Assembly: GCF_003946395.1 (NCBI RefSeq)
Contig: NZ_RHNZ01000007.1
Location: forward strand, 1-64,000
Reading direction: 5' to 3'
DNA: 64,000 bases
Source of the DNA: Levilactobacillus fuyuanensis
GTDB taxonomy: Bacteria; Bacillota; Bacilli; Lactobacillales; Lactobacillaceae
The notes under the pieces are model-generated. The model was not told where the DNA came from and ran no database searches. It worked only from the letters and a program-made list of their open reading frames with translations. The translations under genes were made by a program, and so were the position numbers. Shown here piece by piece: positions 4,535 through 42,553 of the stretch (position 1 is the first letter of the stretch; each line of letters starts with the position of its first letter).

Positions 4535-4719
4535 CCGCACTACGGCTGCCAGGAATTCCACCTGCTGTGGGGACGCTCCAGCCTGAGGTACGGGCTTCCG
4601 ACTCAACTTGAAGCCACGAAAAGCCCGCGTCTTCAAGATTGCCCGTGCTGTAAACTGGCTCAAAACCACCAGTTAACACCACCTCCACGGCCAGTTCCAT
4701 TCCTGGCCTCCTCCGGCTA
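4535..4719 (-). repeat. SIR structured repeat, copy 1
   Basis: A structured intergenic repeat of about 185 nt. The outer stem is CCAGGAAT (4549-4556) with ATTCCTGG (4699-4706). Read on the minus strand, it contains hairpin 1 (TTAACTGG/CCAGTTTA), hairpin 2 (TTGAAG/CTTCAA), and the conserved AGCCCG-to-AGGCT hairpin followed by CGTCCCCACAGC. It lies between the terminator of the Mga-like gene and the MarR gene. Hairpin 1 and hairpin 3 are closest to copy 10, forming a subtype. Confidence 0.85.
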
Positions 4720-4773
4720 ATCTTGCCTTTTACTTCACATATCTAGATTCAGAAATTTAGTCTTCTTTTATCA

Positions 4774-4808
4774 AAACAAAAAGCAGGCTGGAGAGATCTC
4801 CTAGCCCA
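4774..4808 (-). terminator. Terminator of the Mga-like regulator gene
   Basis: The minus strand reads GGCTAGGAGA-TC-TCTCCAGCC, with one bulge, and is followed by TGCTTTTTG. Confidence 0.8.
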
Positions 4809-4875
4809 CTGATACCATCTATATTCAGCAAAATATCCAGTTCAAAAAGGGTCTCTCAGCATCCTGGTTGACGAC

Positions 4876-6372
4876 TTAAGAATCCTCGTCCAACGGGTGC
4901 GTCCGATTATTGAAATCCAACGCAAAGAGGGATAGCTCGTGATGGCGCAGCACCCGAATCAAGCGATCCAGGTTCTCCCCGTAAGCCAACTCCTTAACCC
5001 AGTGGAAAGCTTCCAAACGATTACGGTCCGCAAATCCAGCCGCTAACGGGTCAACGCCATAGATGATCAGATAATTATCCCGATTGCGTGCATCAATCAC
5101 CGTCTGATCCGTCAGCAGGCTAAGGTGGACGACCCCACTCAGTAACCGGTTGAAGATATCCGTGGTCACCCCGATCATGTCGTAGGTCACCAGAATCTCA
5201 ACCTTAGCTTCCGTCAGCGTCAGACCGTTCGTGTATTTACTCAGATGTTTCTGCACTAATCGAATATCCGCGGCCGCCACCTCACCGGGATAGAGTTGGC
5301 CCATGCTCTTGGCCAACGCCACTGCCGCCGCCATCGACGACTCGGTCGGCTTATACAGAGCGGTAATTTCTGGCCGCAACAGGGGATCTACCCGGAAGAG
5401 CAGCATGAACTGACAGAGTGAGAATAACCAGTTGGCGAACCAATCGCTCCCAGTCGCGTAGTCCGACAACTCACGGACGCCGGGTGCTAGTTCATAGCTA
5501 CCCAGACGTTGTTTGATACCGAGATAGATGCGCTGCATCGCTTGAGGTTGTAAGGCCCGGACGAAATACGGCGAACTCGTCAGCAAGTAGTCCAGCGTTG
5601 CTAATTCCGTCAGTGCCTCCTGCGGCGTATCCCCAAGACGCGTCTGCAAGGCCCCCGCCAAGCCGCGTAGGTCGGTCAGATGCCCCAGTGGAAACCGCAA
5701 CGGCGCATAGCGATGTCCCTGATCCAACCGCAATAGAGCCAGCGTAACTAGCAGATTTTTCCGCTGGGTCAGACTGATGGACTCCTGATAAATGGCGCCA
5801 TTGGCGTAGGTCGTCATAACCTGGTCGTGAATCGGCTGTATCCGTGCCGATAACTTTGGCAGATCTGTGACCGGCGTCAGCGTCGTACTGAACAGCATAA
5901 AGTAAAGCAGTTGAATCAATGCCTCGTTGCCCACGACCCGCAGCGGATTGGCCGTCAATTGCAAGTCATACTGGGCCAACTGCTGCTTCATTTCCTTCAT
6001 GCGTCGGTTGAAGGTGGATGTACTGATGCCCAGGTCGGCGCAGAAGGTACTGGTCTGCTGATAATCCTCCCGTAGCGTCGCCAGCATCGCCTGATACGGA
6101 ATGCTCTGCCGGTAGAGCCAGCGGCGGTAGTCATCCATCGTGACACTCGTCACCAAGTCATCCTTAGTCAGCAGGGTTTGCCGATCCAACACCTCCAGAT
6201 CCGTTCTGAGATTCAGCAGAACGTGGTAGGCACGCGAGTAGCTCACCTTGGTCATTTCGGCAAACTCCGTCAAACTAAAGTGACGTTTCTCATCATTGAT
6301 AAAGGTCAACAGCCGAATCTTCAACGTCTCCTTGGCCGTCAACATCGCAAAGTCGATCTTCAATTCTCTCAC
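4876..6372 (-). CDS. Mga/AtxA-like PRD-type transcriptional regulator
   Basis: A 498-residue protein with the layout of the Mga/RofA family. It has an N-terminal winged helix (about residues 18-65, with KVSYSRAYHVLLNLRTDLE), a second Mga HTH domain (about 80-130, with GISTSTFNRRMKEMKQQL), and then a long helical region like the phosphotransferase-regulated domains of Mga and AtxA. These proteins couple sugar phosphotransferase status to transcription, usually of surface or metabolic genes. The frame starts at a GTG (6372) with only a weak Shine-Dalgarno. A TTG or ATG a few codons inside is possible. The divergent side carries no obvious target, and it is followed by its own terminator. Confidence 0.82.
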   Translation of the reverse strand: MRELKIDFAMLTAKETLKIRLLTFINDEKRHFSLTEFAEMTKVSYSRAYHVLLNLRTDLEVLDRQTLLTKDDLVTSVTMDDYRRWLYRQSIPYQAMLATLREDYQQTSTFCADLGISTSTFNRRMKEMKQQLAQYDLQLTANPLRVVGNEALIQLLYFMLFSTTLTPVTDLPKLSARIQPIHDQVMTTYANGAIYQESISLTQRKNLLVTLALLRLDQGHRYAPLRFPLGHLTDLRGLAGALQTRLGDTPQEALTELATLDYLLTSSPYFVRALQPQAMQRIYLGIKQRLGSYELAPGVRELSDYATGSDWFANWLFSLCQFMLLFRVDPLLRPEITALYKPTESSMAAAVALAKSMGQLYPGEVAAADIRLVQKHLSKYTNGLTLTEAKVEILVTYDMIGVTTDIFNRLLSGVVHLSLLTDQTVIDARNRDNYLIIYGVDPLAAGFADRNRLEAFHWVKELAYGENLDRLIRVLRHHELSLFALDFNNRTHPLDEDS

Positions 6373-6396
6373 TTCTCATTCGCCTGGCATAAACGA

Positions 6397-6427
6397 AAGC
6401 CCCCTAACCACTAAAAAGTCAGGGAGT
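6397..6427 (-). terminator. Probable terminator of the 80-residue ORF
   Basis: The minus strand reads CCCTGAC paired with GTTAGGG around an AT-rich loop. The T tail is poor (GGCTTTCGTTT), so confidence is moderate. Confidence 0.5.
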
Positions 6428-6470
6428 TTCTGCGCCATTATTATTTTCTAGTCTCTATGGCCTTAATCGC

Positions 6471-6713
6471 CTAATCGATACTTGAAATAGTTACGTTACG
6501 CGCATCGAATTCCGTCAGGGTCTCCTTCAAAATAATCCGGGGATCGTCGTAGCGAATGCCAGGAAGCGCACTGCTGACATAGTTTCCCGTCAATCTGCCT
6601 GCTGCCACCTCTGGTTGAATGAGGACGTTTTGCCCATCGCTCGTGGTCAAGGTCACACTCTTGCCGTCCGTCAACCGGTCAACTAGTGGTAAAATCGGCA
6701 TCTTTTGCATCAT
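6471..6713 (-). CDS. Hypothetical 80-residue protein
   Basis: A small soluble protein. The longer frame (to 6767) is possible, but GGAGGGTG lies nine bases upstream of the ATG at 6713, which makes that the start. The sequence has alternating short strand-like stretches (SVTLTTSDGQNVLIQ near residues 18-32, NVTISSI at the end) and no cysteine or transmembrane segment. It sits directly upstream of the Mga-like regulator on the same strand, but a hairpin separates them. No family was recognised and no function is proposed. Confidence 0.6.
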   Translation of the reverse strand: MMQKMPILPLVDRLTDGKSVTLTTSDGQNVLIQPEVAAGRLTGNYVSSALPGIRYDDPRIILKETLTEFDARNVTISSID

Positions 6714-6767
6714 TCTGATCACCCTCCTATACTGAGTTTCCATCTTCATTCTAACACGTCCACTCAC

Positions 6768-7059: not shown

Positions 7060-8466
7060 CTATGACACTTTAACTGGTGCTGGCACTCGGGTAAACCGCA
7101 TGCCGATGAAGTAGATTACGGCCGTGATGGCCATCGCAATAAAGGTTGCGCCGATTGTCGTGGCAATCACCGGCACCTGCTTCAAGCCCCAGTACGCCAC
7201 AACGCCCAGAGCCCAGCTCGCTACGGCAACCCAGTTGACCCCATGGGCGTACCAGTAAGCGCCGTGAACCTTGGTGAATTCACTCAGTTTATACTGCTTG
7301 CCCTTCAGGATAAAGTAATCGACCAGGAAGATGGCAATTTCCGGTCCCAGGAACATGCCGATCCCATCCAGGAATGTTTCGAAGACGTCCAGGAAGCTCG
7401 CGAGGTAGACCGGGATAAAGGTGACCGCGGTGGCTGCCAGCGTCACGATCCACAGACTCACGTTCAGCGATAGCCGGTGCGTCATGTTCGTCAGCGCAGA
7501 ACCAGCCGACATCAGGTTGACCGCGTTGGCCGTGGTACTGGTCAACACGATGACCAGTAAGGCGATGATGCCCAGTCCCAATTTGGCAGCGACCGTACTC
7601 GGGTCGGAGTTATTCGGATCGAAATGGTTCAGTGAAACCGCCGTCCCAATCGTGGCAAATAGCCCGATGAAGGCAAACCAGAACAGCCCGAAGTTGGCCC
7701 CTAGGAAACTAGCCTTGGTGGCCGCCGACTTCTTGTTAGTGAAGCGACTGAAGTCGGACGCTGCCGTCACCCATGCGAGGTTGAAAGCTGCCAGTGTGTC
7801 GGCCGCTACCCCGGAGCTCATCCGCATACTGTGGGGTGGTTGCCAGCCGATGATTTCGCTAAAGGAAACCGTCCGGAATACAACCACCGATTCCCACAAC
7901 ACGAAGACCACAACGAGAATGATGCCGATTCGTTCGATCAGTCGAACCGACCGTTCCCCCAACGAAATACTCAACAAATGCAACACACTCATGATGATAA
8001 TCCCAACGATCAAGCCGAAGGTGCCACCCGGTTTGCCATACAGCGGCCAACCGAAGAGTTCTCCGAAGATGTAACTGATCGAAGTGGCCGCGATGAACGT
8101 ATTGACTGCGGCCCATCCGATAAACTGAATCACGTTGATGACCGACGGAATAAAGCTCCCGCGTAACCCGAACGAGGCCCGGGTCAGTGCCATCGCTGGT
8201 AAACCTGTGCGGTAGCCCATGTAACTGGCCACTGCCAGTAAGGCGTAAGAGATCAATCCCACAACGACTAACGTGGTCGACGCCGTCAGGAACCCACAGG
8301 CGGCAATGACCCCACCGATGTACCAAGTCCCGTTGTTAGCGTTAGCGCCGATCCATGTGGCGAACAAGTCCCAATTGGACATCCGCCGATGCTCACGAGG
8401 AATCGACTCAACTCTCCCGAATTCCTTAGATGCTTTTGTTGCGGTTGCTTTAATCTCTTGTGCCAT
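7060..8466 (-). CDS. NCS1-family nucleobase/vitamin:cation symporter
   Basis: A 468-residue transporter with twelve predicted membrane helices, matching the CodB/Mhp1-type NCS1 family (cytosine, purines, hydantoins, thiamine precursors). The early loop MSNWDLFATWIGANANNGTW is typical of the family. So is the helix 3 region with RASFGLRGSF, followed by a helix containing IQFIGWAAVN. The AAAGGTGAGGACGC Shine-Dalgarno supports the ATG at 8466. The substrate cannot be fixed from sequence. The nearby nucleoside deoxyribosyltransferase, under pyrimidine-type control, makes a pyrimidine base such as cytosine or uracil reasonable, but that is inference. No TPP or purine riboswitch was seen upstream. 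Confidence 0.9.
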   Translation of the reverse strand: MAQEIKATATKASKEFGRVESIPREHRRMSNWDLFATWIGANANNGTWYIGGVIAACGFLTASTTLVVVGLISYALLAVASYMGYRTGLPAMALTRASFGLRGSFIPSVINVIQFIGWAAVNTFIAATSISYIFGELFGWPLYGKPGGTFGLIVGIIIMSVLHLLSISLGERSVRLIERIGIILVVVFVLWESVVVFRTVSFSEIIGWQPPHSMRMSSGVAADTLAAFNLAWVTAASDFSRFTNKKSAATKASFLGANFGLFWFAFIGLFATIGTAVSLNHFDPNNSDPSTVAAKLGLGIIALLVIVLTSTTANAVNLMSAGSALTNMTHRLSLNVSLWIVTLAATAVTFIPVYLASFLDVFETFLDGIGMFLGPEIAIFLVDYFILKGKQYKLSEFTKVHGAYWYAHGVNWVAVASWALGVVAYWGLKQVPVIATTIGATFIAMAITAVIYFIGMRFTRVPAPVKVS

Positions 8467-8529
8467 GCGTCCTCACCTTTCTCTTCTCGAATGCTGCGAA
8501 CTGTTTTGACTCTATTAAATTGTGGTAAC

Positions 8530-8727
8530 TGGTCGCCTGCGGCTGCCAAGGATTCCGCCTGCTGTGGGGACCGCCTGCAGCCAAAGTTCTGGCTTCCGGC
8601 TCGGTTTGAAACCTCGCGAGGCCCATGCGAGTTTCCAAACACGTCCCACGCTGTAAGTCCGGGGAAATTCACCCGGTCTAACACCGTCGTCACAGCAAGC
8701 TACACCCTTGGCCTCCTCCGGCTTATG
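8530..8727 (-). repeat. SIR structured repeat, copy 2
   Basis: Outer stem CCAAGG (8546-8551) with CCTTGG (8706-8711), a compensated change from the CCAGNG/CNCTGG form seen elsewhere. Hairpin 2 is AAACTCGC/GCGAGGTTT. The conserved hairpin 3 loop reads AGCCAGAACTTTGGCT, followed by GCGGTCCCCACAGC. It lies upstream of the NCS1 permease gene in the same orientation. Confidence 0.88.
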
Positions 8728-8810
8728 TTGCGAGAGTGCCGTCAAAACTGTTGACAGATTCTTCATCACTCTCTGCTGGCCTTAACCTATCCAGACGACC
8801 TATGTACGTT

Positions 8811-8835
8811 GGCGATACATCACCGCCAACGTTTA
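8811..8835. other. Perfect 8-bp hairpin upstream of SIR copy 2
   Basis: CGTTGGCG and CGCCAACG flank a 9-nt spacer and are followed on the plus strand by TTTAAACTTT. It could be a weak terminator on the plus strand or an operator for the permease on the minus strand. Nothing decides between these. Confidence 0.4.
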
Positions 8836-8955
8836 AACTTTAATATGGCGCATCAAATTACCAGTCTCTCACGGGTTAACACTGTCTGAGCCGCATGCTT
8901 TCGGTCCATCAAGTTGCTTGGCTAAATCCACTAGGCTGGTCGCCATCACATTTGA

Positions 8956-9140
8956 GCCGGAGGCAACCTGGGATGGAGCCAGCCGTGACGATGGCGTTGG
9001 TTGAAGTTTTTTCAGTCAACCTACACCATGGGACGCGTTTGAAGACACGTCTCTCAGTGGCTTCAAACCGAGTCGGCAGACCGCTCTTTGGCTGGCGGCG
9101 GTCCCCACAGCGGCGGAATCCCAGGTTGCCGTAGGCGATA
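8956..9140 (+). repeat. SIR structured repeat, copy 3
   Basis: This copy has an extended 11-bp outer stem, CAACCTGGGAT (8964-8974) with ATCCCAGGTTG (9118-9128). Hairpin 1 is GGTTGA/TCAACC, where most other copies have CCGGG/CCCGG. Hairpin 2 is GTTTGAAG/CTTCAAAC. The conserved AGACCGCTCTTTGGCT hairpin and GCGGTCCCCACAGC follow. It lies head-to-head with copy 2. Confidence 0.88.
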
Positions 9141-9159
9141 ACCCTCATCAACCTAATGA

Positions 9160-9600
9160 CTAGAGGATTTGGCCGACAAACTCGCCGGCTGGGAGGGTAT
9201 TGAAGTCGTAAGTCTTGAAGTCATCGACGTTCTTGCTGTACCAGTGCATGCTTTCGGTGACCATCAAGTTCACGGCCTCGTCCTTTTCCTGAAGCGCAAT
9301 GATCGGCTTGTTACTCATCGTGGCCACACCCAATTCGTAGGCGGTCCCAGAATCCAGGTTCTTGGCCTCAAAGTCGATGACCGTGACGATGACATCGGCC
9401 GCCGCAATTTGATCCATGTCGCGGTGGAAGATCTCCGTGGCCCATGGCTTGGTAAATTGTTCGTTGGCCGCATCTTGGTGGAGCCGTGGTGAATAGAAAT
9501 CTTTAACCGTTGGATTGGCTTCCAGAGCAGCCTCTAGGCGTTTCACCCGGTCGACCTGTTCTGGACTAAAGAATGGACTCGCAACGTAAATCTGTGACAT
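9160..9600 (-). CDS. ndt: Nucleoside 2-deoxyribosyltransferase
   Basis: The enzyme exchanges the base of 2-deoxyribonucleosides, a nucleoside salvage step characteristic of lactobacilli. The 146-residue length is close to the family norm of about 157. The family signature is clear: YVASPFFS near the N-terminus and the active-site stretch NLDSGTAYELG (residues 81-91), with Asp83 and the nucleophile Glu89. The ATG at 9600 follows GGAGGAATTTAGTT. A further 22 codons upstream run into the terminator of the leader and are not translated. The 5' leader carries a PyrR-type attenuator, so expression probably tracks pyrimidine nucleotide supply. Confidence 0.93.
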   Translation of the reverse strand: MSQIYVASPFFSPEQVDRVKRLEAALEANPTVKDFYSPRLHQDAANEQFTKPWATEIFHRDMDQIAAADVIVTVIDFEAKNLDSGTAYELGVATMSNKPIIALQEKDEAVNLMVTESMHWYSKNVDDFKTYDFNTLPAGEFVGQIL

Positions 9601-9639
9601 AACTAAATTCCTCCATCGATTTGATTTCAACCCTCTCGG

Positions 9640-9770
9640 CATGAAAAAAGCGGCCGAATCCCGCAAGAATTCCAGCCGCTAGCTTCACTCGTACTTAGGC
9701 GCACGAATAACTTCTACCGTACCTTTATCAGCCTCACGGGACTAAATTAAAAGGACTTATTTGGTTGTTG
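9640..9770 (-). promoter_or_regulatory. PyrR-type transcription attenuator in front of ndt
   Basis: The minus-strand leader contains AGTCCCGTGAGGCT (9730-9743), a full match to the known PyrR-binding loop ARUCCNGNGAGGYU. Downstream is a strong terminator (AGCGGCTGGA paired with TTCGGCCGCT, about 9645-9680) with a T6 tail that ends roughly 40 nt before the ndt start. In pyr operons, PyrR plus UMP stabilises the anti-antiterminator and stops transcription. Applying that to ndt is inference from these matches. Confidence 0.82.
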
Positions 9771-9776
9771 TAAAGT

Positions 9777-9805
9777 ATTATACGGGCCGACTGTTCATCC
9801 GTCAA
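9777..9805 (-). promoter_or_regulatory. Promoter of the ndt attenuator transcript
   Basis: TTGACG (9800-9805) and TATAAT (9777-9782) on the minus strand with a 17-nt spacer, about 35 nt upstream of the PyrR-type loop. Confidence 0.85.
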
Positions 9806-9901
9806 ACCCAGAATTGTCGAAAATGATTGGGGTTAATCGGTAAACCACCCGCTGTGTCAGTGCTAACTAATTTTTCAATTAATTCCTGAACGTTGGAAAT
9901 T

Positions 9902-10098
9902 GTCGCCTGCGGCTGCCAGAGATTTCATCTGCTGTGGGGACCACCTACAACCAAAGCACGGGCTTCCGGCTTGGTTTGAAACCTCGCAAGGTTCATGCGA
10001 GTTTCCAAACACATCCCATGATGTAACCCCGGGAAGAATCAATCACCCGGGTTAACATCATCGTCACGGCCGACTCCATCTCTGGCCTCCTCCGGCTA
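9902..10098 (-). repeat. SIR structured repeat, copy 4
   Basis: Outer stem CCAGAGAT (9916-9923) with ATCTCTGG (10078-10085). Hairpin 1 is long: the ATGATGT and ACCCCGGG arms pair with CCCGGGTT and ACATCAT. Hairpin 2 is AAACTCGC/GCGAGGTTT and the hairpin 3 loop is AGCCCGTGCTTTGGTT. It lies upstream of the ndt promoter, outside its transcript. Confidence 0.88.
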
Positions 10099-10204
10099 GG
10101 CTAACTTCCAACCACAACATTAACTCAAAAATAATCACTTTGAATTTCCATGTCGTAAGTTTCACCAACACCAACAACTGTGGGCTAACACCATATAAGC
10201 CGTA

Positions 10205-10373
10205 GGACTGGTGAAAATTGGCTCAGCTGTGGGAATACGCTTAGCGGCGACCTTTGCCGGTTAGCGTATTGGGAACTTTAAGACGTGGTCCTCACGGCTT
10301 GAAGTTCAGCCTAAAGACCGTCCTTTGGCTTTAGGCGTCCGCCCTCAGCGTCACGGCCCATTTTCACCAGTCC
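10205..10373 (+). repeat. SIR structured repeat, copy 5 (short-core variant)
   Basis: A perfect 14-bp outer stem joins GGACTGGTGAAAAT (10205-10218) to ATTTTCACCAGTCC (10360-10373). Inside are hairpin 1 (AATACGCT/AGCGTATT), hairpin 2 (CTTTAAG/CTTGAAG) and hairpin 3 (GCCTAAAG/CTTTAGGC). The hairpin 3 loop ACCGTCCTTTGG is shared with the other copies and is followed by GTCCGCCCTCAGC. It ends 28 bp before the promoter of the PH-domain operon. Confidence 0.85.
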
Positions 10374-10400
10374 GGAGGCACATTTAGTTAACCCCCATGG

Positions 10401-10429
10401 TTGTCAGAGGATGGGGGACTTGCTACACT
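10401..10429 (+). promoter_or_regulatory. Promoter of the PH-domain operon
   Basis: TTGTCA (10401-10406) and TACACT (10424-10429) with a 17-nt spacer, about 30 nt upstream of the first gene. Confidence 0.7.
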
Positions 10430-10460
10430 GGTTATATCAGGAGAGGAGTTTCAAACATCT

Positions 10461-15454: not shown

Positions 15455-15735
15455 GCCTCCCGGGATGGTGAAAATGGACTGGGACGCGGTGGGCGGACGT
15501 CATCGCCTTGCCGGGCGGCGCAAATAGGCTGGAACGCTAGGGCGGACGCCGGGAGCCAAAGTACGGTCTCCCGGCTTGACTCGGAACCTCTAAGGACCGA
15601 GTTTCCAAGTCACCAATTATCTAGGCAGCAAAGTTCGCTACCAAGATAATTCCCACGGCTGAGCCGATTTGCGCCACCCTCACGGCTAACATGGCGTCGA
15701 CCCAACCGCGTCTATTTTCACCATCCCTCCGGATC
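15455..15735 (-). repeat. SIR structured repeat, copy 6 (long variant)
   Basis: The largest copy, about 280 nt. The outermost 14-bp stem joins GGGATGGTGAAAAT (15462-15475) to ATTTTCACCATCCC (15714-15727). On the minus strand a second domain is closed by GACGCGG/CCGCGTC and by GGTGGCGCAAAT/ATTTGCGCCGCC. The core holds hairpin 1 (AATTATCT/AGATAATT), hairpin 2 (CTCGG/CCGAG arms) and hairpin 3 (GCCGGGAG/CTCCCGGC), with the conserved loop ACCGTACTTTGG, then GTCCGCCCTAGC. Confidence 0.85.
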
Positions 15736-15822
15736 ACACCGTGTCAAACCAGCAATCTCTATATCGTCCGGCCGATACTGTGAGAATTCTTACATATCAA
15801 CTCACTAGCACATCACTGAAAC

Positions 15823-15858: not shown

Positions 15859-16069
15859 AATACAAGTTATGTTTAAAGTCCCCGAAATCAATAACGCAAT
15901 AGTCCCCGCTATTCCGTTGGCCATATCACCACCGAGCCTCACAGGTAACTAGTGATGATATTGCTATAAATCAATGACGCCAACAGCAGTGCTCCTGACC
16001 ATGGCAACAACGATAGATCTTCTGTACATAGCTTTCATTCTGAAGGTACCGTCTAGACTCGTTCTGTAG

Positions 16070-16240
16070 CCGAAGGCAGTTGGGTTCTACGCAGTGACGG
16101 GGGTCTTTGCTAGCGTACCTAGCTAGCTTAGACCCCGGGACGATTGGTAGACTCGACCTTTGAGGCTTCCAATCACCTCTAGAGACCGCCATTTGGCTCT
16201 AGAGGTTGCCCCACAGCGTAGTACCCAACTGATGTAGGCG
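16070..16240 (+). repeat. SIR structured repeat, copy 7 (short-core variant)
   Basis: The outer stems are CAGTTGGGT (16077-16085) with ACCCAACTG (16223-16231), and CTACGC with GCGTAG. Hairpin 1 is GGGGTCT/AGACCCC with an inner GCTAGC/GCTAGC. Hairpin 2 is GATTGG/CCAATC. Hairpin 3 is CCTCTAGAG/CTCTAGAGG with the conserved loop ACCGCCATTTGG, followed by TTGCCCCACAGC. A second CCACAGCGTCACGGCC-like tail follows at about 16252-16267. Confidence 0.83.
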
Positions 16241-16296
16241 AAAGAACCTAATCCACAGCGTCACGGCCGATTGCCAGTACCCGGTAAGGCGCTGGT

Positions 16297-17130: not shown

Positions 17131-17184
17131 TTCACATAATTTTCACAACTTTCTTATAGTTCCATTAAAAACGCCCGCTATAAT
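17131..17184 (+). promoter_or_regulatory. Promoter region of the first arylsulfotransferase-like gene with PhoP-box-like direct repeats
   Basis: TTCACA (17131-17136) and TTCACA (17142-17147) are separated by 5 nt, and a degenerate third unit CTTATA (17153-17158) keeps the same 11-bp period. A TATAAT -10 is at 17179-17184. Direct TT[C/A/T]ACA units at this period are the known binding pattern of Bacillus PhoP. Assignment to PhoP here is inference. A related direct repeat, ACATAATTGTCACA, lies at about 17077-17090. Confidence 0.55.
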
Positions 17185-17261
17185 TGATAAACAGGTGCGA
17201 CCGGTTACATCGAAGCAATATTACCAGGTCGTATCAAATACATAAAGAAAGTGGTGTCATT

Positions 17262-18977
17262 TTGAGAAAACACAGACGCTTTGGTTGGCTGATTGGGGCA
17301 GCCTTCGTCGTCCTAGCATTGACCGGGTGCGCACAGTCCTCAAAGGCTGATGCGCCCAAGCAACCGAAACGGGTCACGGATTCGACGTTGCTTTCCACGG
17401 CCAAGATCAAGAGTAATATTGGGAGCGACCTGGTCTCCACGTTAAAGGATCAACAGGCCAGCACGACCCAGGATCTACGGGATAAACTGAATTCGGGGGG
17501 TTATTCCGCAGACCACATGTACGTGAAACTCAATCCATACGGGACTTCACCGCTCTCGGCCATTGCCCTCTTTACGACGGACGATGCCGTGAAGGTGAGC
17601 TATACGGTGGTCGGCAAGACTGATAAGACGAGTGTGACCAACACGTTGGCCGGTTATAAAACCCGTCACACCTTGCCAATCGTCGGCCTGTATGCCGATG
17701 ACAATAACACGGTCAAGATTCACCTGACGACTAAGGCCGGGAAAGTCACGACCAAGACGATTTACATTCAGACTAAAGCCCTGGCAAAGAACCTGGCCAA
17801 TCTGAAGCTAACCGTCACCAAGAATGATAAGGCCAAGATGAAGATCGGCAATAACCAGATGACTTTCATGATTCGTTCCACCCAACGCCCATTTGCCGTG
17901 GATGCCGACGGTGCCGTTCGTTGGTACTCCGACAACTACGCACAACACATTTACAAGCAACTCAGCAATGGCCACATTATCCTGATGAACAAGAAGGATA
18001 ACGCCCACATGGTCTACAACGACCTGATTGAGACCGATTATCTGGGACGCGTTTACAAGCAATATCACATTAGTAATAAGACCAAGAGCACCGAAAACGT
18101 CAAGGCCACGGCCAAATCCGAAAATAAACAGGAAACGACCGTGATTCACCATGACGTTATCGAACTGCCTAACCACAACCTGCTCGCGACCGTTTCCGAT
18201 GGGAGTAAATATGTCGAAGACACCATCGTTGAGCTGTCGCACAAGACGGGAAAAGTCGTGAAGGTGCTCGATATGAAACGCATCCTGCCAAAGAACATGT
18301 GGAAGAAGTACGACTCCTCTACTCGAACCGATGGCAAGGTCGACTGGCTCCACAACAACGCCCTGTACTACGACAAGTCCGACAAGAGTCTGGTTATTTC
18401 CAGCCGGCATCAGGATCTGGTCATGAAGATGGACTATAAGACGGGCAATATCAAGTGGCTCTTCTCCGGGAAGAAAACCACGGACTGGCCTAAGGCTTAT
18501 CAGCCATTCGTCTTGAAGGCAGCCAAGGGCACGACCATTACCGGAGGCCAACACGCCGCCTACCTGCTGGGTGATAACGACGGTAACGCCAACACCAAGG
18601 ATCTCCTTCTGTACGACAACAACTACGCCGTCACCAACGGAGATAAGAAGACTAGCGGCAAGTACTCACAGGCCGTTCAGTACACGATTAATGAAAAACA
18701 CATGACCATCAAGCAGAATTGGGCGTACGGCAAGAGCTTAGGCAAGGCCAACTTTACTGACCGTATCGGGAATAGCCAACGCTTAAGCAATGGTAACCAC
18801 CTGATTGACTTCGGGTACCTGAACGCTAAGAACGGGACCGGGAGTAACGTTATTGAGGTCGCCGGAAATCAGCAGGTCTTCAACCTGCATGTCGATAACA
18901 TTCCGGACAAGGGCTACGTTTACCGGGCATACCGGCAACCGCTGTTCCCAAGCAATTACACGTTCGACCTTAATTAA
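17262..18977 (+). CDS. Arylsulfotransferase (ASST)-family lipoprotein
   Basis: A 571-residue exported protein of the arylsulfate sulfotransferase family, which moves sulfate between phenolic compounds without PAPS. Family motifs are in order: HHDVIELPNHNLL, DWLHNNALYY, ISSRHQDLVMKMD and GGQHAAYL. In characterised ASST enzymes the last motif holds the histidine that becomes sulfated, and here it reads QHAA. The start is the TTG at 17262 after AAGAAAGTGGTG, which gives a signal peptide ending in the lipobox LTGC (Cys23). It would therefore be anchored outside the membrane. A paralogue lies 750 bp downstream. Substrate and true donor in lactobacilli are unknown. Confidence 0.88.
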   Translation: MRKHRRFGWLIGAAFVVLALTGCAQSSKADAPKQPKRVTDSTLLSTAKIKSNIGSDLVSTLKDQQASTTQDLRDKLNSGGYSADHMYVKLNPYGTSPLSAIALFTTDDAVKVSYTVVGKTDKTSVTNTLAGYKTRHTLPIVGLYADDNNTVKIHLTTKAGKVTTKTIYIQTKALAKNLANLKLTVTKNDKAKMKIGNNQMTFMIRSTQRPFAVDADGAVRWYSDNYAQHIYKQLSNGHIILMNKKDNAHMVYNDLIETDYLGRVYKQYHISNKTKSTENVKATAKSENKQETTVIHHDVIELPNHNLLATVSDGSKYVEDTIVELSHKTGKVVKVLDMKRILPKNMWKKYDSSTRTDGKVDWLHNNALYYDKSDKSLVISSRHQDLVMKMDYKTGNIKWLFSGKKTTDWPKAYQPFVLKAAKGTTITGGQHAAYLLGDNDGNANTKDLLLYDNNYAVTNGDKKTSGKYSQAVQYTINEKHMTIKQNWAYGKSLGKANFTDRIGNSQRLSNGNHLIDFGYLNAKNGTGSNVIEVAGNQQVFNLHVDNIPDKGYVYRAYRQPLFPSNYTFDLN

Positions 18978-19027
18978 GTTATTTACCTAACATTTCGTGC
19001 TAGCGGCTAAATAGAGGGTGAAAGTTG

Positions 19028-19219
19028 TCGCCTGCGGCTGCCAGGGATTCCGTCTGCTGTGGGGACCGCCTCCAGCCAAAGAGCGGGCTTCCGGCTCGGT
19101 TTGAAACCTCGCCAAGTTCAGGCGAGTTTCCAAACACGTCCCACGCTGTAAGGCCGGGAAAAACCACCCAGTCTAACAGCGCCGTCACAGCCGACTACAT
19201 CCCTGGCCTCCTCCGGCTA
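19028..19219 (-). repeat. SIR structured repeat, copy 8
   Basis: Outer stem CCAGGGAT (19041-19048) with ATCCCTGG (19199-19206). On the minus strand: hairpin 1 CGCTGT/ACAGCG, hairpin 2 CTCGCC/GGCGAG, and hairpin 3 loop AGCCCGCTCTTTGGCT, then GCGGTCCCCACAGC. It sits between the two ASST-like genes and is antisense to them. Confidence 0.88.
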
Positions 19220-19285
19220 AAATAACTTTCTAACATCTCTATTAGCCGAACACTCAAGTCGGCAAATCATTAATTCAAGACTCAC

Positions 19286-19330
19286 GGGGAACGACCATCA
19301 GCCTCATTGCTGGCAGTCGTTCCCCTTTTC
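19286..19330 (+). terminator. Terminator downstream of the first ASST-like gene
   Basis: GGGGAACGAC pairs with GTCGTTCCCC, with an inner CAGC/GCTG, followed by TTTTC. It lies beyond SIR copy 8. Confidence 0.85.
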
Positions 19331-25014: not shown

Positions 25015-25163
25015 AAAATTCACGTCTCCCAAATAGGTCACATTATTTTTGTAGAAATTACATTTAAGTTATTAATGATTTCGGACTATAATAAAAAAAG
25101 ACGACCAAGAAAAGTAACATCGTTTTCTTTAAATCTCAACTTTTACCTTTAGGAGGTAATCAT

Positions 25164-25598: not shown

Positions 25599-25749
25599 TC
25601 TCACAAAAAAATATCATAAACGTTTCGTTCTGCTAATAAAGAGTTTTATTTAGATGTTCTGAATGATTATAAAAATAACTGTGCGCACAAAACTTGACAG
25701 CACGTAAGACACCACATGTTTTTTCGTTTAAAGATTAGGAGGTAATCAT

Positions 25750-30596: not shown

Positions 30597-31178
30597 GGAG
30601 CAAGCCGTTTCGAAAGCCGCAAGTTTCCGGATATCATGGCGAGAGAAAATCCAACGAACCAAACTAGCAAAACAACTAACAACCTGTGCCGGACAGGAGT
30701 CACTTAGCTTTCTAAGCGCAGGAGTCTGGTTTGTGGAACTCGTTTCAGAGGCTGCAAGTTTCCGAATATATTGGCGAGAGAAAGTCAAACGAACCAAGCC
30801 AGTAAAACCACTAACAACTCACGCCGGACAGGAGTTCCTTATTTTTCTAAGCGGAAGAATCTGGCTTGCGGAACTCGTTTCAGACCAGAGTGTGAAGGAG
30901 GGTGGTAGGTCCTGAGCATTAACGTCAATAAGTGCCCACTCGGTGGAACCGAGTCGGTGCTTATTGGGGTTAAGCGCAGGGACCTGCCCGACTGAACGCG
31001 TTTCAGAGACCGCATACTTCCGGATATCTTGGCGAGAGAAAGTCTAACGAACCAAACACGTAAAGCTACTAACAACCTTTGCCGGGCAGGAGTCCGGGTT
31101 GTGAAACTCGCTTCGAAAGCCACATATTTCCGGATAGCGTGGCGAGAAAAATCCAGTGCACCAAGCCAGTCCAGCCAT
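30597..31178 (+). repeat. Element C degenerate tandem array (about five units)
   Basis: Units of about 107-138 bp begin near 30597, 30735, 30868, 30997 and 31105. Each opens with GAACTCGTTTCAGA-like sequence, then TTTCCGGATAT, GGCGAGAGAAA, CGAACCAA and ACTAACAAC. Between units an arm pairs across: CAAGCCAG with CTGGCTTG in one unit and CAAACTAG with CTGGTTTG in another, a compensated difference. Unit three is replaced in part by a long hairpin (30904-30988). No ORF is conserved through the units, so the array is probably non-coding. Confidence 0.75.
30904..30988 (+). repeat. Element C long hairpin, copy 1
   Basis: GGTAGGTCC (30904-30912) pairs with GGACCTGCC (30980-30988). Inside, TTAAC/GTTAA and then AATAAGTGCC and ACTCGGT pair with their counterparts up to a GGA loop, giving an almost continuous stem of about 30 bp. 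A near-identical copy in the opposite orientation lies at 36087-36171. Confidence 0.85.
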
Positions 31179-35992: not shown

Positions 35993-36037
35993 TATTTAGT
36001 ATTGGGTTTAAGGACTGGTTTAGAGAGCTAGTCTGGC

Positions 36038-36187
36038 TCTCGCCTTGATGTTCGGAAACTTGCGGCTTCTGAAACGCGTTCAGTCGGGCAGGTCCCTCCG
36101 CTTAACCCCAATAAGCACCGACTCGGTTCCACCGAGTGGGCACTTATTGACGTTAATGCTCAGGACCTACCGCCCTTCTTCACGCTC
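36038..36187 (-). repeat. Element C, inverted single copy with long hairpin
   Basis: Nearly identical over about 150 bp to 30891-31039 but in the opposite orientation. The outer stem is GGCAGGTCC (36087-36095) with GGACCTACC (36163-36171). It starts right after the multicopper oxidase stop codon and may act as its 3' structure. Together with the copy at 30.9 kb it forms an inverted pair around about 5 kb. Confidence 0.85.
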
Positions 36188-37723
36188 TTACATCTTCATC
36201 CCCATCTTCTCATACGAACTCATCCCGGCGAGGTGGAGGTCTTTAACATCTATCCCCCGCTCCTTGGCTACCGCGTTCATTAAGGTATCCATGTCCATTA
36301 GCTTATAGGTTTGTGGATGGTCTGGGTCGTAGACTTCGATTTGCGCCATCATGCCGCCGTCCTCGTGTTCGATGATGTGGCAGTGGTACATGTAGACCCC
36401 GGTGTGTTCGAACCAGACCTTGATGCGGACCGTTTCGCCCGGGTTGACGCCAACTGTGTCCTTGAAGCCGTGTTCGTTGGGGTATGGTGCTTTACCATTC
36501 CGCGAGATCACTAGGAATTGTGTCCCGTGCATGTGGAATGGGTGGACCATGCCGCTGCCCATGTCGTTAGTGTTAGTCACGTCCCAGAGCTCGACGTTGC
36601 CAACCTTTTGCTTGGCATCGATCCGTTGCATTTCGAATTTCTTGCCGTCGATCATGACCTGCTCGTCCATCCCGGACATCACAACCTTGCGAATCGGCGT
36701 GTCCGGTGTGACTTCTGGGTCAGGAATATCGACGAGGTGGTCGGGTAACGTGGCTGTATCTGGCTTGAACGCGTGGATGCGGAACCGAACCAACGGAACA
36801 TCGTCAGAATACAACGTGACCGTTTCGCCCGGCTTGACCTTGCCGAAGTCCACAATGATTTCAGCCCGTTCCGCACAGGTTAACATCAGGTGGGTAAATG
36901 CAACGGGTTCTGGCATCACACCACCGTCCGAAGCCACTTGCGTGAATGGCAGGTCATTACTGAAGTGCAGCCGCCACTCGCGCCGGTTTGCCCCGTCCAA
37001 GATACGTAACCGCAACCGTTGCGTGGTGACATCGAAGTAAGGATTGATAGTCCCGTTGATCATCGCCGTAGGCCCTTGGACGCCATCTGGATCGTAATCG
37101 GCGTCGTAATCCCACTGGTTATCTTCGTGGAAGCGCCGGTCTTGCAAGACTAACGGAATGTCATCGACCCCGTAGTTTCTTGGAAATGGCAACTTGGCTT
37201 CTTGCTCATCGGTGACCAGTGCCAAACCGGCCAAGCCCTTCCAGACTTGTTCGGCCGTTGATGGGCACGGATGGGCATGCAACCACAACGTTGCAGCTGG
37301 TTGGTCGACTTTAAAATCAATGTGCCGCGTCTTGCCAGGATAGACTGGCGCGTGACACCCACCGTCCGTGTATGGCCCGGGAACGTTCAGTCCGTGCCAG
37401 TGGAAAGTAGTTAATTCAGGTAAATTATTTTTTAGATCAACATGCATCGTCTTGCCCTTAGCGAAGATGATGGTCTGACCGAGCAGACTCCCGTTGTACC
37501 CCCAGGTCTTGGTCTTCTTACCGGGCAACAGTTGTGTCTCCCCGGCTTGAGCCTCGACCGTGTAATAGGTATCCGTGGCGGTCTCCTTGTCAGGCTTTAA
37601 AAGTGGGGGAATCCGTAGCGGTTGTTGCGGCGTATCGGGTTCCTCCAACGGGACGTAACCCCCGTCATGCGTGTTAAAAGCCGGTTCATCAAAGAAATAA
37701 TCGGTGTGGATTGATTTTGTCAT
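36188..37723 (-). CDS. Multicopper oxidase (laccase-like, cytoplasmic)
   Basis: A 511-residue three-cupredoxin oxidase that couples substrate oxidation to reduction of O2 to water. All four copper-ligand segments are present: HWHG (type 2/3), HAHPC, HPFHMHG and HCHIIEHEDGGMM with the type 1 Cys, His and Met. There is no signal peptide, so it is cytoplasmic. Related enzymes of lactobacilli oxidise phenols and degrade biogenic amines. The methionine-containing C-terminus (MGMKM) recalls copper-handling relatives. The start follows GAGGAGCCTGAAAG. It is next to metal-resistance genes, but regulation is not visible. Confidence 0.95.
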   Translation of the reverse strand: MTKSIHTDYFFDEPAFNTHDGGYVPLEEPDTPQQPLRIPPLLKPDKETATDTYYTVEAQAGETQLLPGKKTKTWGYNGSLLGQTIIFAKGKTMHVDLKNNLPELTTFHWHGLNVPGPYTDGGCHAPVYPGKTRHIDFKVDQPAATLWLHAHPCPSTAEQVWKGLAGLALVTDEQEAKLPFPRNYGVDDIPLVLQDRRFHEDNQWDYDADYDPDGVQGPTAMINGTINPYFDVTTQRLRLRILDGANRREWRLHFSNDLPFTQVASDGGVMPEPVAFTHLMLTCAERAEIIVDFGKVKPGETVTLYSDDVPLVRFRIHAFKPDTATLPDHLVDIPDPEVTPDTPIRKVVMSGMDEQVMIDGKKFEMQRIDAKQKVGNVELWDVTNTNDMGSGMVHPFHMHGTQFLVISRNGKAPYPNEHGFKDTVGVNPGETVRIKVWFEHTGVYMYHCHIIEHEDGGMMAQIEVYDPDHPQTYKLMDMDTLMNAVAKERGIDVKDLHLAGMSSYEKMGMKM

Positions 37724-37869: not shown

Positions 37870-37896
37870 TAAAAACTAAATTTAAAGTCAGTAACG

Positions 37897-39693: not shown

Positions 39694-39777
39694 GGTCCCT
39701 CCCCTTAAATCGTAATTGTTACCTCGAGTATACCAAAGCTTGTGACTTTTACCACATACGGACTGAAATTTGACCAA

Positions 39778-39810
39778 ACAAAGAGAGCCCGACCACGGCC
39801 GGACTCTCTA
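39778..39810 (-). terminator. Terminator for the LPXTG adhesin gene
   Basis: The minus strand reads AGAGAGTCC paired with GGGCTCTCT, with TTTGTTTGG after it. It lies beyond SIR copy 9. Confidence 0.75.
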
Positions 39811-39893
39811 ATGAATCAGCTATAAAAATAAATCTTAACATCGGTCAAAGCAAAAACGGAACTCACTAAATACTCATAAGTAAAAGATAGTTC

Positions 39894-40089
39894 AGCCGGA
39901 GGAGGCCAGAAATGTAGCCAGCTGTGACGACGGTGTTAGTCCGGGCGATTGGTTCTCCCCGGTCTTACACCGTGGGACGCGTTTGGAAACTCACTGATTT
40001 GTGGTGAGGTTTCAAACCGAGCTGGAAGCCCGTTCTTCGGCTGAAGGCGTTCCCCATAGCAGGCGAAGTTTCTGGCAACCGCAGGCGAC
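39894..40089 (+). repeat. SIR structured repeat, copy 9
   Basis: Outer stem CCAGAAA (39906-39912) with TTTCTGG (40069-40075). Hairpin 1 is ACGGTGT/ACACCGT with CCGGG/CCCGG. Hairpin 2 is CTCAC/GTGAG where others have CTCGC/GCGAG. The hairpin 3 loop is AGCCCGTTCTTCGGCT. It ends with a T7 run at 40091-40097 and lies just after the LPXTG adhesin stop codon, antisense to that gene. Confidence 0.87.
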
Positions 40090-40108
40090 ATTTTTTTACA
40101 CTGAGTAA

Positions 40109-41443
40109 TTAGAAGTGACGGCGAACAATCACGCCTGCACCTAACGTAGTCAGTACCAGAACGCCACCGAGCACGCCGGATAAGTTTCCTTGATCATCGG
40201 TCTGAGGTAACTTCGTGTTTGTGGTCTTCGTGGTGCCAGGATTTTCGGTTGCGGTTGCTTTAGCAACAGCAGCCCGCGCAGCCGCAGCTTTAGCGGCAGC
40301 GGCTTTGGCAGCTCGCTTCTTAGCAGCCTTTTTGGCAGCTTCCTTCTTAGCGGCTTGCTCGTTTTCTTTCTCTTCGCGTTCAGCTTCTTCTTCATCGGTT
40401 TCCGTGCCACCATCGGTATCGGTCGTCCCAGTACCGGTGTCGACATCAGGATCGACGCCAGGTTCTTCAGTCTCGTGGGTGTCACCACCACCGGAACCAC
40501 TGTTCCCATTAGAAGATGAAACTTTCCCATTTGCTTCTTCGGAATTCTTACCCCCTGAGGTGCCCCCACCCCAAGTCATGACAGCGTTGTTTCTAAATTT
40601 ATACCCAGAATCAATCAACGATGGGTCGGTTACCTTAGTGTAGTAATCGATAACCACCAGATTGCTGACGGTGTCGTTAAAGGATAGGTCAAATCCATCT
40701 TTGTTGTATGTAACGTTGTAGTCGGTTCCTTCAGTCATTGCTGGCTTTTCACGCTTATAGGTCGTGGTGTTTTCCCAGTACCCATTACTTACGGTCATGC
40801 CATGAATCAATTCCTGATTAGCACCGATTGTATCGGTAATGTCCAAGTTTTTCAGCTCAATTTCACGCCGATCGACTAAGATCGTCCATTTGATTGTGCC
40901 ATCATCCTGTAGCGTCCCCTTCTTAGAAAGATTGGCGTCGTTTTCAACAATGTTGATTTGAGAAGTGCTACTGCCATTGTTTTCGAGTGGGAAAACAACA
41001 TCCTTCTCGCCAGAATCTTCGTAGCGGTACTTAGTCATCATGTTCAAGGTCAACTTGCTGTTGGTTTTACCCTCCAACGCATCGTTCATAGTGATGACGA
41101 CGCCCTTGTCGGATATGACAGCCTCACCGATCACTGTACCATCGTCATCGAACACTTTGAAAGTATCACCGGGAGTCTTCCCCTTCAAGTTCTCCGGAAA
41201 ATCAAGCGTGATGGTATCGCCACTCTTAAGCGGCATGTCACCAAAGTCCAAATTGTATTGCACATCAATCGTATCTGCATGCTTGAAATCCGGTCCGTTA
41301 GTGACACTGGCTGAGGTGGTAAAGTCTGCACCATTATGGTTGGTTGCAGCTTTGGCCGGTGTCGCCACTTGGCTGACAACTAATAAGAACACTAAACTAA
41401 AGAATCCAATCAGCAATCGCCAAGATTTACTATTTATCTTCAA
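40109..41443 (-). CDS. LPXTG-anchored adhesin with SDR-type adhesive domains
   Basis: A 444-residue cell-wall protein. It has an N-terminal signal peptide (about residues 1-33, ending AKAA) and an adhesion module of about 270 residues. That module resembles the bacterial SDR/collagen-binding fold, with YNLDFGDMPLKSGDTITLDF near its start. An acidic Gly/Asp/Thr stalk and an Ala/Lys-rich helical stalk (EAAKKAAKKRAAKAAAAKA) follow. The sortase motif LPQTD leads to a hydrophobic helix and the RRHF tail. LPQTD instead of LPxTG is seen in several lactobacilli. It starts with TTG after GGGAGGAGATATTT. Confidence 0.88.
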   Translation of the reverse strand: MKINSKSWRLLIGFFSLVFLLVVSQVATPAKAATNHNGADFTTSASVTNGPDFKHADTIDVQYNLDFGDMPLKSGDTITLDFPENLKGKTPGDTFKVFDDDGTVIGEAVISDKGVVITMNDALEGKTNSKLTLNMMTKYRYEDSGEKDVVFPLENNGSSTSQINIVENDANLSKKGTLQDDGTIKWTILVDRREIELKNLDITDTIGANQELIHGMTVSNGYWENTTTYKREKPAMTEGTDYNVTYNKDGFDLSFNDTVSNLVVIDYYTKVTDPSLIDSGYKFRNNAVMTWGGGTSGGKNSEEANGKVSSSNGNSGSGGGDTHETEEPGVDPDVDTGTGTTDTDGGTETDEEEAEREEKENEQAAKKEAAKKAAKKRAAKAAAAKAAAARAAVAKATATENPGTTKTTNTKLPQTDDQGNLSGVLGGVLVLTTLGAGVIVRRHF

Positions 41444-41642
41444 AAATATCTCCTCCCGAAACTTTTAGATAACCAAAGTATACGCGCCCGTGCAACCGCT
41501 TGGCAATAGCTGCGGGACAGGTTACCCAAATTGAGGGGAGAACTTCCTGGTCTTTGGAAAATCGTCAATGATAGTGCCGCCGAATCCGGTCATCTGAGCC
41601 TTCTCTATTTCCTCTCTGCTGTGACCGCCAACTCAAAATGCC

Positions 41643-41682
41643 ATAAAAAAGGGCCACCAGTCTCATCGACTCGTAGCCTACC
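41643..41682 (-). terminator. Terminator of the HesB/IscA-like gene
   Basis: The minus strand has an AGTC/GACT core extended by GGC/GCC pairs and followed by a T6 run. The stem contains internal mismatches. Confidence 0.65.
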
Positions 41683-41687
41683 AACGC

Positions 41688-42092
41688 CTAGCAGATGCGC
41701 GTGCCCAGCGTTTGCATTTCTTTCTTTAAATCTAATTTTGATTTCTCTTCAGCCGTGTAGGTAATTAACCCAACCGCGCTGTCCAAGATGCCACTGTCGT
41801 CACGCAATGAAAGTTGGTTGAAGACGCGGTCTAAGATCAAGCCGTTACTCAAATACAATTCGGTATCGGCGTTCGTCTTCAACGTCCAACCTGCGTTGTT
41901 GGCTACCGTAATGGGATAATCGGGATCGTCAGTCGTCAGGGCAACCAGTTGAAACTTATCGCCGATAGCACAGGTTCCTCCCACCGTTGAGTATCGGTTG
42001 GAGCCGTCATCCGTGGTCAGCAGCACGGTGCTTCCCAGTTGAACGTTCTCGGCTAGGTATGCTTTCGCTGCGTCTTTAATCGTGATTTCCAT
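41688..42092 (-). CDS. HesB/IscA-like (Fe-S biosynthesis-type) domain protein
   Basis: A 134-residue soluble protein resembling the iron-sulfur cluster biosynthesis (HesB-like) family common in lactobacilli. The N-terminus MEITIKDAAKAYL and the beta-rich core with DDGSNRYSTVGGTCAIGDKF fit. Only one cysteine lies in the core (GGTCAIG) and one at the very end (RIC), so the classical three-cysteine cluster site of IscA is not complete. A scaffold function is therefore doubtful. The start follows AAAGAGGG. No other Fe-S assembly gene is nearby. Confidence 0.65.
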   Translation of the reverse strand: MEITIKDAAKAYLAENVQLGSTVLLTTDDGSNRYSTVGGTCAIGDKFQLVALTTDDPDYPITVANNAGWTLKTNADTELYLSNGLILDRVFNQLSLRDDSGILDSAVGLITYTAEEKSKLDLKKEMQTLGTRIC

Positions 42093-42244
42093 GATTATTT
42101 CCCTCTTTCTTGCGAACCATCATCCAATCAATTGTGCACAATTAACTATAACTTGATTTGGTTAATTTGTAAATCAATTCGACTTAGGTTGGCTTTGATG
42201 ACCCCACTGCATGAGTCGTTATATGACTAGCAAGAATTCCCGCA

Positions 42245-42423
42245 CTACGGCTGCCAGAGGTTCCGCCTGCTGTGGGGACGCTCCAGCCTGGGAACCGGGC
42301 TTCCGACTCAACTTGAAGCCACGAAAACCACGGGTCTTCAAGATTGCCCGTGCTGTAAACTGGCAAATGCACCAGTTAACACCACCTCCACGGCTGGCTC
42401 CACCTCTGGCCTCCTTCGGCTAA
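42245..42423 (-). repeat. SIR structured repeat, copy 10
   Basis: Outer stem CCAGAGGT (42254-42261) with ACCTCTGG (42402-42409). On the minus strand hairpin 1 is TTAACTGG/CCAGTTTA, hairpin 2 is CTTGAAG/CTTCAAG, and hairpin 3 is AGCCCG...AGGCT followed by GCGTCCCCACAGC. It is closest to copy 1. Confidence 0.87.
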
Positions 42424-42527
42424 ACTTGATCATTCCAATTTAAATGTTTCCCACTGGAACCTACCAACCTAAACCCTAGACAGATAATCACATATTCTGT
42501 CCCTAAGCCCCCCCTGTTTCATTAATA

Positions 42528-42553
42528 GGCGGAATCCCTGACAGCCGAAGGCG
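42528..42553 (+). repeat. SIR fragment (3' end only)
   Basis: GGCGGAATCCCTGACAGCC (42528-42546) followed by GAAGGCG matches the 3' end of full SIR copies with two differences. No 5' half is present, so this is a decayed or truncated copy. Confidence 0.75.

Follow-up and report, generated by a model that had tools for sequence, protein, structure and literature searches.

Dispersed three-hairpin intergenic repeats of Levilactobacillus fuyuanensis: inverted flanks, hairpin exchange, and a possible fold-back route of insertion

The first 64,000 nucleotides (nt) of contig NZ_RHNZ01000007.1 of Levilactobacillus fuyuanensis (GCF_003946395.1), the stretch called the window below, carry ten copies and one possible fragment of a non-coding repeat family of about 190 nt, in which an outer stem surrounds three hairpins (H1, H2, and H3). 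Judged by sequence comparison, the copies are dispersed, follow an orientation rule, are bordered by inverted flanks in three close genomes, and have been exchanged at fixed sites. The outer-stem ends are AGCCGGAGG and GCCGCAGGCG, with an aligned 5' end of the kind AGCCG.AGG, and those of a second class are AGCCGTGAGG and CCGGTAAGGCG. With the copies aligned in one sense, CAGCYGTG lies inside the ends and is partly paired with CCCACAGC, and a linker of the GGGACG type and the H3 loop ACCG...TTTGG are internal landmarks common to the aligned elements. The body from AGCC to GGCG has a median length of 187 nt (178 copies). The ten window copies matched a model built from themselves at nhmmer E-values of 1e-31 to 1e-56, and the same model matched further copies outside the window in this genome. 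The motif GTCCCCACAGC alone, at up to 2 mismatches, was weakly enriched (25 window matches vs. 17.1 expected, reached by 4 of 100 shuffles). On a gene map made by our own script based on open reading frames (ORFs), not by a trained gene finder, no gene was called within 49 of 50 elements.

An earlier note on this DNA had listed ten elements and one fragment, with copies on both strands. All ten were recovered where it had placed them, plus and minus strands both being represented, and several of the stems that it quoted are legible directly in the aligned sequences. The fragment, at 42527-42554(+), is a weak match to an element 3' end (E 0.059, in the looser list only) and is perhaps the trace of a lost partner element. 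The element at 42234-42430(-) is 91% identical over 42240-42364 to 4535-4659, within the element at 4531-4728(-), whose site in Levilactobacillus parabrevis holds a mere 3'-end remnant. Farther along, the element at 8527-8729(-) lies 61 nt upstream of the start of the gene at 7060-8466(-), which we take to be permease-like. Its partner at 8949-9142(+), the two 5' ends facing, lies 18 nt past the stop of the gene at 9160-9666(-), presumably resembling a nucleoside deoxyribosyltransferase, and on the 5' side of this partner, at 8912-8934(-), stands an inverted copy of the coding end 9160-9182. Upstream of the same gene and its PyrR-type leader is the element at 9897-10107(-), which is partnered by a second-class element (GTCCGCCCTCAGC) at 10187-10371(+). 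The 280-nt element of the earlier note (about 15455-15740) is present, but not as a single element: a complete second-class element at 15505-15696(-) is nested within the outer arms of a host element at 15455-15745(-), its arms at 15462-15479 and 15710-15727 enclosing the guest, which has a third-type partner at 16065-16243(+). The element at 19021-19229(-) lies between the stop of 17184-18977(+) and a terminator-like hairpin at about 19286-19329, read by eye, and an inverted copy of 18956-19026, including 22 nt of coding end, occupies 19224-19291(+). Finally, the element at 39882-40094(+) is located 15 nt past the stop of the gene at 40109-41443(-) and ahead of a terminator-like hairpin at about 39783-39809, also read by eye.

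The window and two other contigs, 449 kb in all, hold 53 matches, 50 of them longer than 130 nt, which amounts to about 2% of the DNA examined (53 matches of about 190 nt in 449 kb, by hand). The density is very uneven (36 in 209 kb, 7 in 176 kb, and 10 in 64 kb), and naive extrapolation would give about 320 copies genome-wide. A covariance model of 48 diverse copies, R1, returned 53 matches in the same 449 kb, a few of them doubled in overlaps. Among Lactobacillaceae genomes, where the earlier note had suggested such a search, R1 at E 0.001 found related copies in other genera of the family; counting this genome, 27 of 121 had a match, and these belong to 11 of 40 genera. In a class-wide sample at E 0.0001, the one genome of 200 with a match was this genome itself; 20 of the other 199 are listed as other families and 179 have no listing. 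Both searches used stricter filters, by which weak matches are lost. An exact element pattern, sought in one genome per species (84,980 species), gave 29 stretches in L. parabrevis, L. humaensis, and one uncultured Lactobacillus metagenome-assembled genome (MAG). The genome called L. parabrevis in all comparisons, G007, is very probably that species. Four distant BLAST queries against plasmids gave no match, nor did one query against phages; at that sensitivity, and with records close to this genome possibly missing from both collections, there was no sign of element travel on plasmids or phages.

The position of the elements beside genes was polar. The 3' end was nearer to a gene than the 5' end in 44 of 50 elements (medians 60 vs. 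428 nt), a bias partly due to extra DNA on the 5' side and to pairing, and the gene end that it faced was a start in 23 of 50 and a stop in 27. In element pairs at most 700 nt apart, the 5' ends faced each other in 50 of 53 cases, 3 pairs were in tandem, and none had facing 3' ends. Many of the 34 close pairs that belong to this genome and L. parabrevis stand at shared sites, so not all are independent events. Pairs in other genera were likewise 5'-facing in 17 of 17 cases (16/16 in genus g38 and 1/1 in g18). Because the copies are dispersed and 5'-facing, and their 3' ends lie at stops about as often as at starts, a mobile repeat fits better than a regulatory RNA with one job per site. Two other groupings were also observed. 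Two elements stand in tandem at C34:174845-175476 (L042), and there is a single one at G007c35:41303 (L139/L140), which is 98% identical to C34:175267 as a plain orthologue, with flanks 59-72% alike; both seem to lie in or beside second-class arms. A joined stretch of G002 (L153/L088) carries a triple at 37923(-), 38208(-), and 38454(+), the outer two of which match each other inversely (score 67), an arrangement that might have arisen if an insertion copied an entire element in inverse orientation.

The base pairs of the element covary beyond phylogeny, which is a mark of functional structured RNA, although the signal may be inflated by hairpin exchange. RNAalifold predicted 34 pairs from 48 copies, and in 29 of these pairs some copies differ on both sides yet still pair. 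Paired cells reached 93.9% against 68.5% in shuffled alignments, and the covariation score 0.676 against 0.201, with neither value reached in 500 shuffles; sliding the partner by 1-3 columns lowered pairing to 31-47%. For a tree-aware null, 176 of the 178 elements were aligned, 153 sequences (192 columns) were kept at 93% identity or less, and substitutions were moved randomly along a FastTree tree in 40 null alignments, a procedure that assumes no hairpin exchange between copies. Sixteen column pairs covaried at E of 0.05 or lower, all within three nested hairpins; 12 are part of the RNAalifold structure of that alignment and 4 extend its helices. Twelve of the 16 were at least 97% canonical, and the other four (0.49 to 0.83) probably reflect misregister. 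The covariation above background that the earlier note expected is thus present. Pairing was 91.2% in 53 matches from three other genera, which were aligned to the model and so lean towards it, and the middle of H3 was poorly kept there. Conserved letters occur in every hairpin. G-U and U-G cells outnumbered A-C and C-A cells (121 vs. 44, in 26 of the 29 pairs), so it is probably the strand written in the earlier note that folds, either as RNA or as single-stranded DNA. Three pairs left out of this count hold 80 G-U, 13 C-A, and 43 G-G cells, and omitting the C-A pair favours this choice of strand, whereas omitting the G-U pair disfavours it. In 12 retained orthologues, changes were found at 30 of 695 counted-pair positions (4.3%) and at 124 of 1492 others (8.3%; Fisher p 0.0006; sums by hand, the outer stem being among the others), a difference that points either to some constraint on the stems where they stand or to correction templated by the hairpin.

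Comparison with L. parabrevis showed that elements have been exchanged at fixed sites. By synteny, 24 sites carry an element in both genomes, and all 24 have the same orientation. Plain orthologues occupy 13 of them (element identity 0.89-0.98) and exchanged elements 11 (0.58-0.85). The 3' flanks of the 11 exchanged sites were 0.81-0.97 identical, and the 5' flanks ranged from 0.54 to 0.93 there and from 0.62 to 0.88 at 12 plain ones. Hairpin segments could be read at 22 of the 24 sites. At C34:161449, H2 is strongly different (0.57), with every H3 segment identical; C34:155030 has kept H1 and the ends and differs in H2 and H3; at 8527 in the window, the outer stem CCAAGG/CCTTGG is kept and all three hairpins differ. 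Another element type stands within the same outermost letters at C34:142387, and at C34:136593 the H3 stem differs with most loop letters the same. In genus g38, where both flanks matched, a lone H1 change was seen in 1 of 10 orthologous pairs (H1 0.51, H2 0.93, H3 0.85), and another orthologous pair has one copy without H1. Within one genome, none of 1711 pairs shared one hairpin at 95% with another below 60%, so exchange is shown by orthologue comparison only. In class 2, the arms of one hairpin correlate (0.45-0.87) and different hairpins do not (-0.21 to 0.12), a pattern that saturation could equally yield, whereas in class 1 different hairpins do correlate (0.46-0.59). The earlier note took the compensatory changes to mean selection on structure. 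As stated, this conclusion is not supported. After the split from L. parabrevis, copies traded entire hairpins, the two arms moving as a unit, and part of the covariation may therefore be the inheritance of ready-made hairpins.

A further feature, seen mainly in this genome, L. parabrevis, and the MAG, is that the flanks of many elements are inverted copies of each other. Read outward, the two flanks exceeded the 99th percentile of the null in 75 of 178 elements, with 1.8 expected. The null consisted of mismatched flank pairs sharing the element's own ends, so the ends were controlled for, and the 178 were taken from 203 matches after leaving out incomplete, near-end, or same-core-sequence copies. 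Without the 42 elements that have parts of other elements within 120 nt, the count was 40 of 136 (1.4 expected), and some of the signal comes from nesting of elements. A first, permissive local test put 4 of 101 elements over the 99th percentile, where 1 was expected, and these four look nested or seem to stand between other elements; the anchored tests gave 27 of 101 and then 75 of 178. The 25 best flank matches, among them that of 19021-19229, cover 19-73 nt. In 26 clear cases from 49 mapped elements, the match overlapped coding sequence on the 3' side 12 times and on the 5' side never. The coding side should be the older DNA, and therefore the 5' flank would be the copy. For the 9160 gene, an inverted copy of the last 23 coding bases scored above 100 shuffles here and in L. 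parabrevis, both with this element, and in none of 23 other species. End repeats of at least 7 nt within 30 nt of the ends (178 elements) were at chance level when direct (8 vs. 6.8 expected) and in excess when inverted (56 vs. 9.8); the element ends are uncertain by several nt, which leaves room for direct duplications of 2-6 nt.

Several sites point to gain of elements. Gaps were clearly shorter in some element-free relatives at three or four of seven window sites tested, namely 138-204 nt against 693 here, 42-99 against 331, 236-396 against 953, and 651-687 against 1158. In G010, G014, G017, or G002, where either none or a single element was found, the first three of these sites measured 138-204, 42-99, and 236-461 nt. 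These gaps are anchored on ORFs of at least 90 aa, between which small genes may be missed, and divergent elements are missed by the model. At the 40109 gene, stop and terminator are about 20-25 nt apart in several element-free relatives such as G010 and G014 and further apart in G017, and here they are parted by the element plus about 90 nt (all by eye). Among 28 elements compared, four (4531, 42234, C34:145098, and C34:174845) have no counterpart element in L. parabrevis. The copy at 4531 was considered as a fresh insertion and ruled out, because the remnant at the L. parabrevis site means deletion there.

Taken together, we read the family as non-autonomous, chromosome-borne, structured mobile repeats inserted by fold-back, with later hairpin exchange, a reading to which we give slightly less than an even chance (about 0.45). 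Both the fold-back synthesis and the later exchange via linkers are what we infer. Synthesis would enter a new copy from the 3' flank and run through the element, and the strand would then fold back on the element's own outer stem and prime itself. Some 20-70 nt of the 3' flank would be copied before the return to the old template, so that the target would be duplicated in inverted and not in direct orientation. Copies would afterwards swap hairpins through short tracts of gene conversion or template switching, with breakpoints in the conserved linkers (GGGACG, GTCCCCACAGC). In yeast and human DNA, fold-back priming has been described as a source of inverted duplications (PMC10622511, PMC7467729, and PMC3907307), and the portions of the literature searched mention no bacterial repeat inserted in this way. 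A stronger form seems unlikely to us, namely that the repeats are mobile elements of a new class, which reach gene edges by copying themselves through fold-back, leave an inverted target copy, and then trade whole hairpins at fixed sites, so that covariation arose largely by exchange.

A number of observations weigh against fold-back insertion. Three genomes supply most of the flank signal, with 71 of 149 elements (44/84 here, 18/43 in L. parabrevis, and 9/22 in the MAG), and five other relatives together have 4 of 29. The signal is missing in genus g38 (0/39), which means either that those insertions have aged or that the feature is not shared throughout the family, and is not clear in g18 and g34 (0 or 1 of 10). 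The 25 best flank matches are no more than 68-91% identical, and with mostly draft assemblies and a single genome for each species, no fresh insertion could be seen. Elements rarely have a gene close to their 5' end, which by itself accounts for part of the 12-to-0 asymmetry. For the 9160 gene the margin is small (score 12.0 vs. a shuffle maximum of 11.6 or 11.4), and at least four relatives with other elements at that site (G002, G023, G020, and G011) show no copy. At the 40109 gene, a coding-end copy is found in neither element-bearing genome, yet in the element-free G013. Not all gaps are short without an element: G012, with none found, has gaps of 470, 1125, and 4113 nt at three sites, and at the 18977 site G014 and G017 have 1290 and 1602 nt against 751 here. 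The element-free L. parabrevis site at C34:145098 still carries a short hairpin, and fold-back by itself leaves the pair orientation unexplained. As to the enzyme, reverse transcriptase (PF00078) has no match in this genome, L. parabrevis, or G001, with matches in 6 of 25 genomes of the genus, and Y1 transposase (PF01797) has none in the element-rich G001, G011, and G016 (at least 21 element matches each). Either of these as an obligatory driver was rejected, being without match in element-rich genomes.

The alternative that survives best, possible but unlikely, is that ordinary miniature inverted-repeat transposable elements (MITEs), or repeats like the repetitive extragenic palindromic (REP) sequences, were put into existing palindromes by a classical transposase, the inverted flanks being the arms of the old palindrome. 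Terminator-like hairpins seen by eye beyond several stop-side elements, the hairpin kept at one element-free site, and the nesting of one window element in another's arms, together with the 42 of 178 elements with other-element parts in their flanks, speak for this view, and alternating orientation is known from REP arrays (PMC2817692). However, old palindromes explain poorly why 12 of the 26 clear cases have arms that extend into coding sequence, why the inverted copy of the 9160 coding end was not found in 23 other genomes, and why the signal persists in 40 of 136 elements without other-element flanks. Direct end duplications of at least 7 nt are at chance level, which also counts against a classical transposase, and the presence of Y1 transposase does not track element abundance.

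We regard as rather improbable the proposal that the elements are a family of structured RNAs, cis-acting or non-coding, which spread by duplication and are retained because each copy does a job where it stands, for instance as a leader RNA or a processing signal. Base-pair covariation, the halved rate of change at counted-pair positions in the 12 retained orthologues, the excess of G-U over A-C, and the conserved letters in every hairpin are what such a family should display. Nevertheless, start-facing and stop-facing copies are about equally frequent (23 and 27 of 50), 11 of the 24 shared sites have an exchanged element, inspection by eye showed no upstream promoter common to the copies, and 94 of 121 family genomes have no match under strict filters. 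Non-canonical pairs per copy numbered 0.67 on the start side (n=18) against 0.46 on the stop side (n=24); an RNA function confined to the start side is unsupported, since start-side copies are not better paired. Lastly, it is very improbable that flanks and covariation are by-products of replication errors (templated quasi-palindrome correction) in repeats without mobility of their own, for although hairpin-templated synthesis would give inverted copies and arm-by-arm stem replacement, and the H3 of C34:136593 has a changed stem with most loop letters the same, this process does not by itself bring a copy to a new locus, yet several loci here contrast with short element-free gaps in relatives.

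Comparison with known families is consistent with the statement of the earlier note that no named RNA family fits. Rfam 15 gave two matches in the whole window at gathering score, neither on an element. At relaxed E-values (window 8480-10420, L041, and L177), the one element match was a chance-level microRNA at 10016-10063 (15.6 bits vs. a gathering score of 63, E 4.2), and the available parts of the literature searched hold no description of this element family. In the window, a T-box leader (RF00230, 111 bits) was detected at 1876-2073(-), upstream of the gene at 560-1819, and a PyrR binding site (RF00515) at 9642-9758(-), ahead of the 9160-9666(-) gene.

REP/REPIN (BIME) repeats are linked to RAYT transposases and carry GTAG/CGTC tags. 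Like them, the elements here are high-copy extragenic hairpins of alternating orientation without coding capacity, but they are about 190 nt long with three hairpins in an outer stem, their flanks are often inverted-duplicated, and they show no tie to the presence of Y1 transposase. With MITEs they share short length, lack of coding sequence, high copy number, a paired terminal stem, and location at gene edges; they differ in having inverted similarity instead of direct target duplications of at least 7 nt, and in the exchange of hairpins between copies. The BOX, RUP, and bcr1 repeats of Gram-positives are also intergenic, multi-copy, foldable, and modular, and by description they are set apart by another sequence and architecture. 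Papers on BOX and RUP are cited in PMC2267715. Integron attC sites are likewise imperfect hairpins with conserved mismatches, read as a single strand, but lack the three-hairpin architecture. GOLLD and other large RNAs are structured RNAs of the same order, Lactobacillales, whereas the elements match no Rfam family above chance on the stretches searched.

Other features of the window were noted as well. A hairpin at 8790-8840, with TACATAG after it, lies ahead of the gene at 7060-8466; it seems conserved in G010, G014, and G017 although the stems differ (by eye), and is perhaps a separate leader structure. A sequence of 135-171 nt, with direct (62-81%) and inverted (75-88%) copies at 30606-31133 and 36018-36188, flanks about 5 kb and has no match to the element model. 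Two 200-nt copies at 25149-25934, 74% identical, stand at the starts of two 144-aa ORFs and are probably a duplicated gene, and 18138-18208 and 20593-20663, 77% identical, are inside the long ORFs 17184-18977 and 19729-21447, probably tandem paralogues. A short tandem repeat of 12/15-nt units at 62593-62684, in the ORF at 60768-62882(-), is likely a low-complexity protein region.

As far as the stretches searched show, Rfam is without a family that makes up about 2% of the DNA examined here. If insertion by fold-back with later hairpin exchange is true, it would add inverted copying of the target to the outcomes of transposition; classical transposases are not known to leave inverted target copies. 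Base-pair covariation, which on its own usually counts as proof that an RNA is functional, could then arise among repeats by the swapping of ready-made hairpins, and L. fuyuanensis and L. parabrevis would offer a natural system in which hairpin exchange between sister species may be followed.

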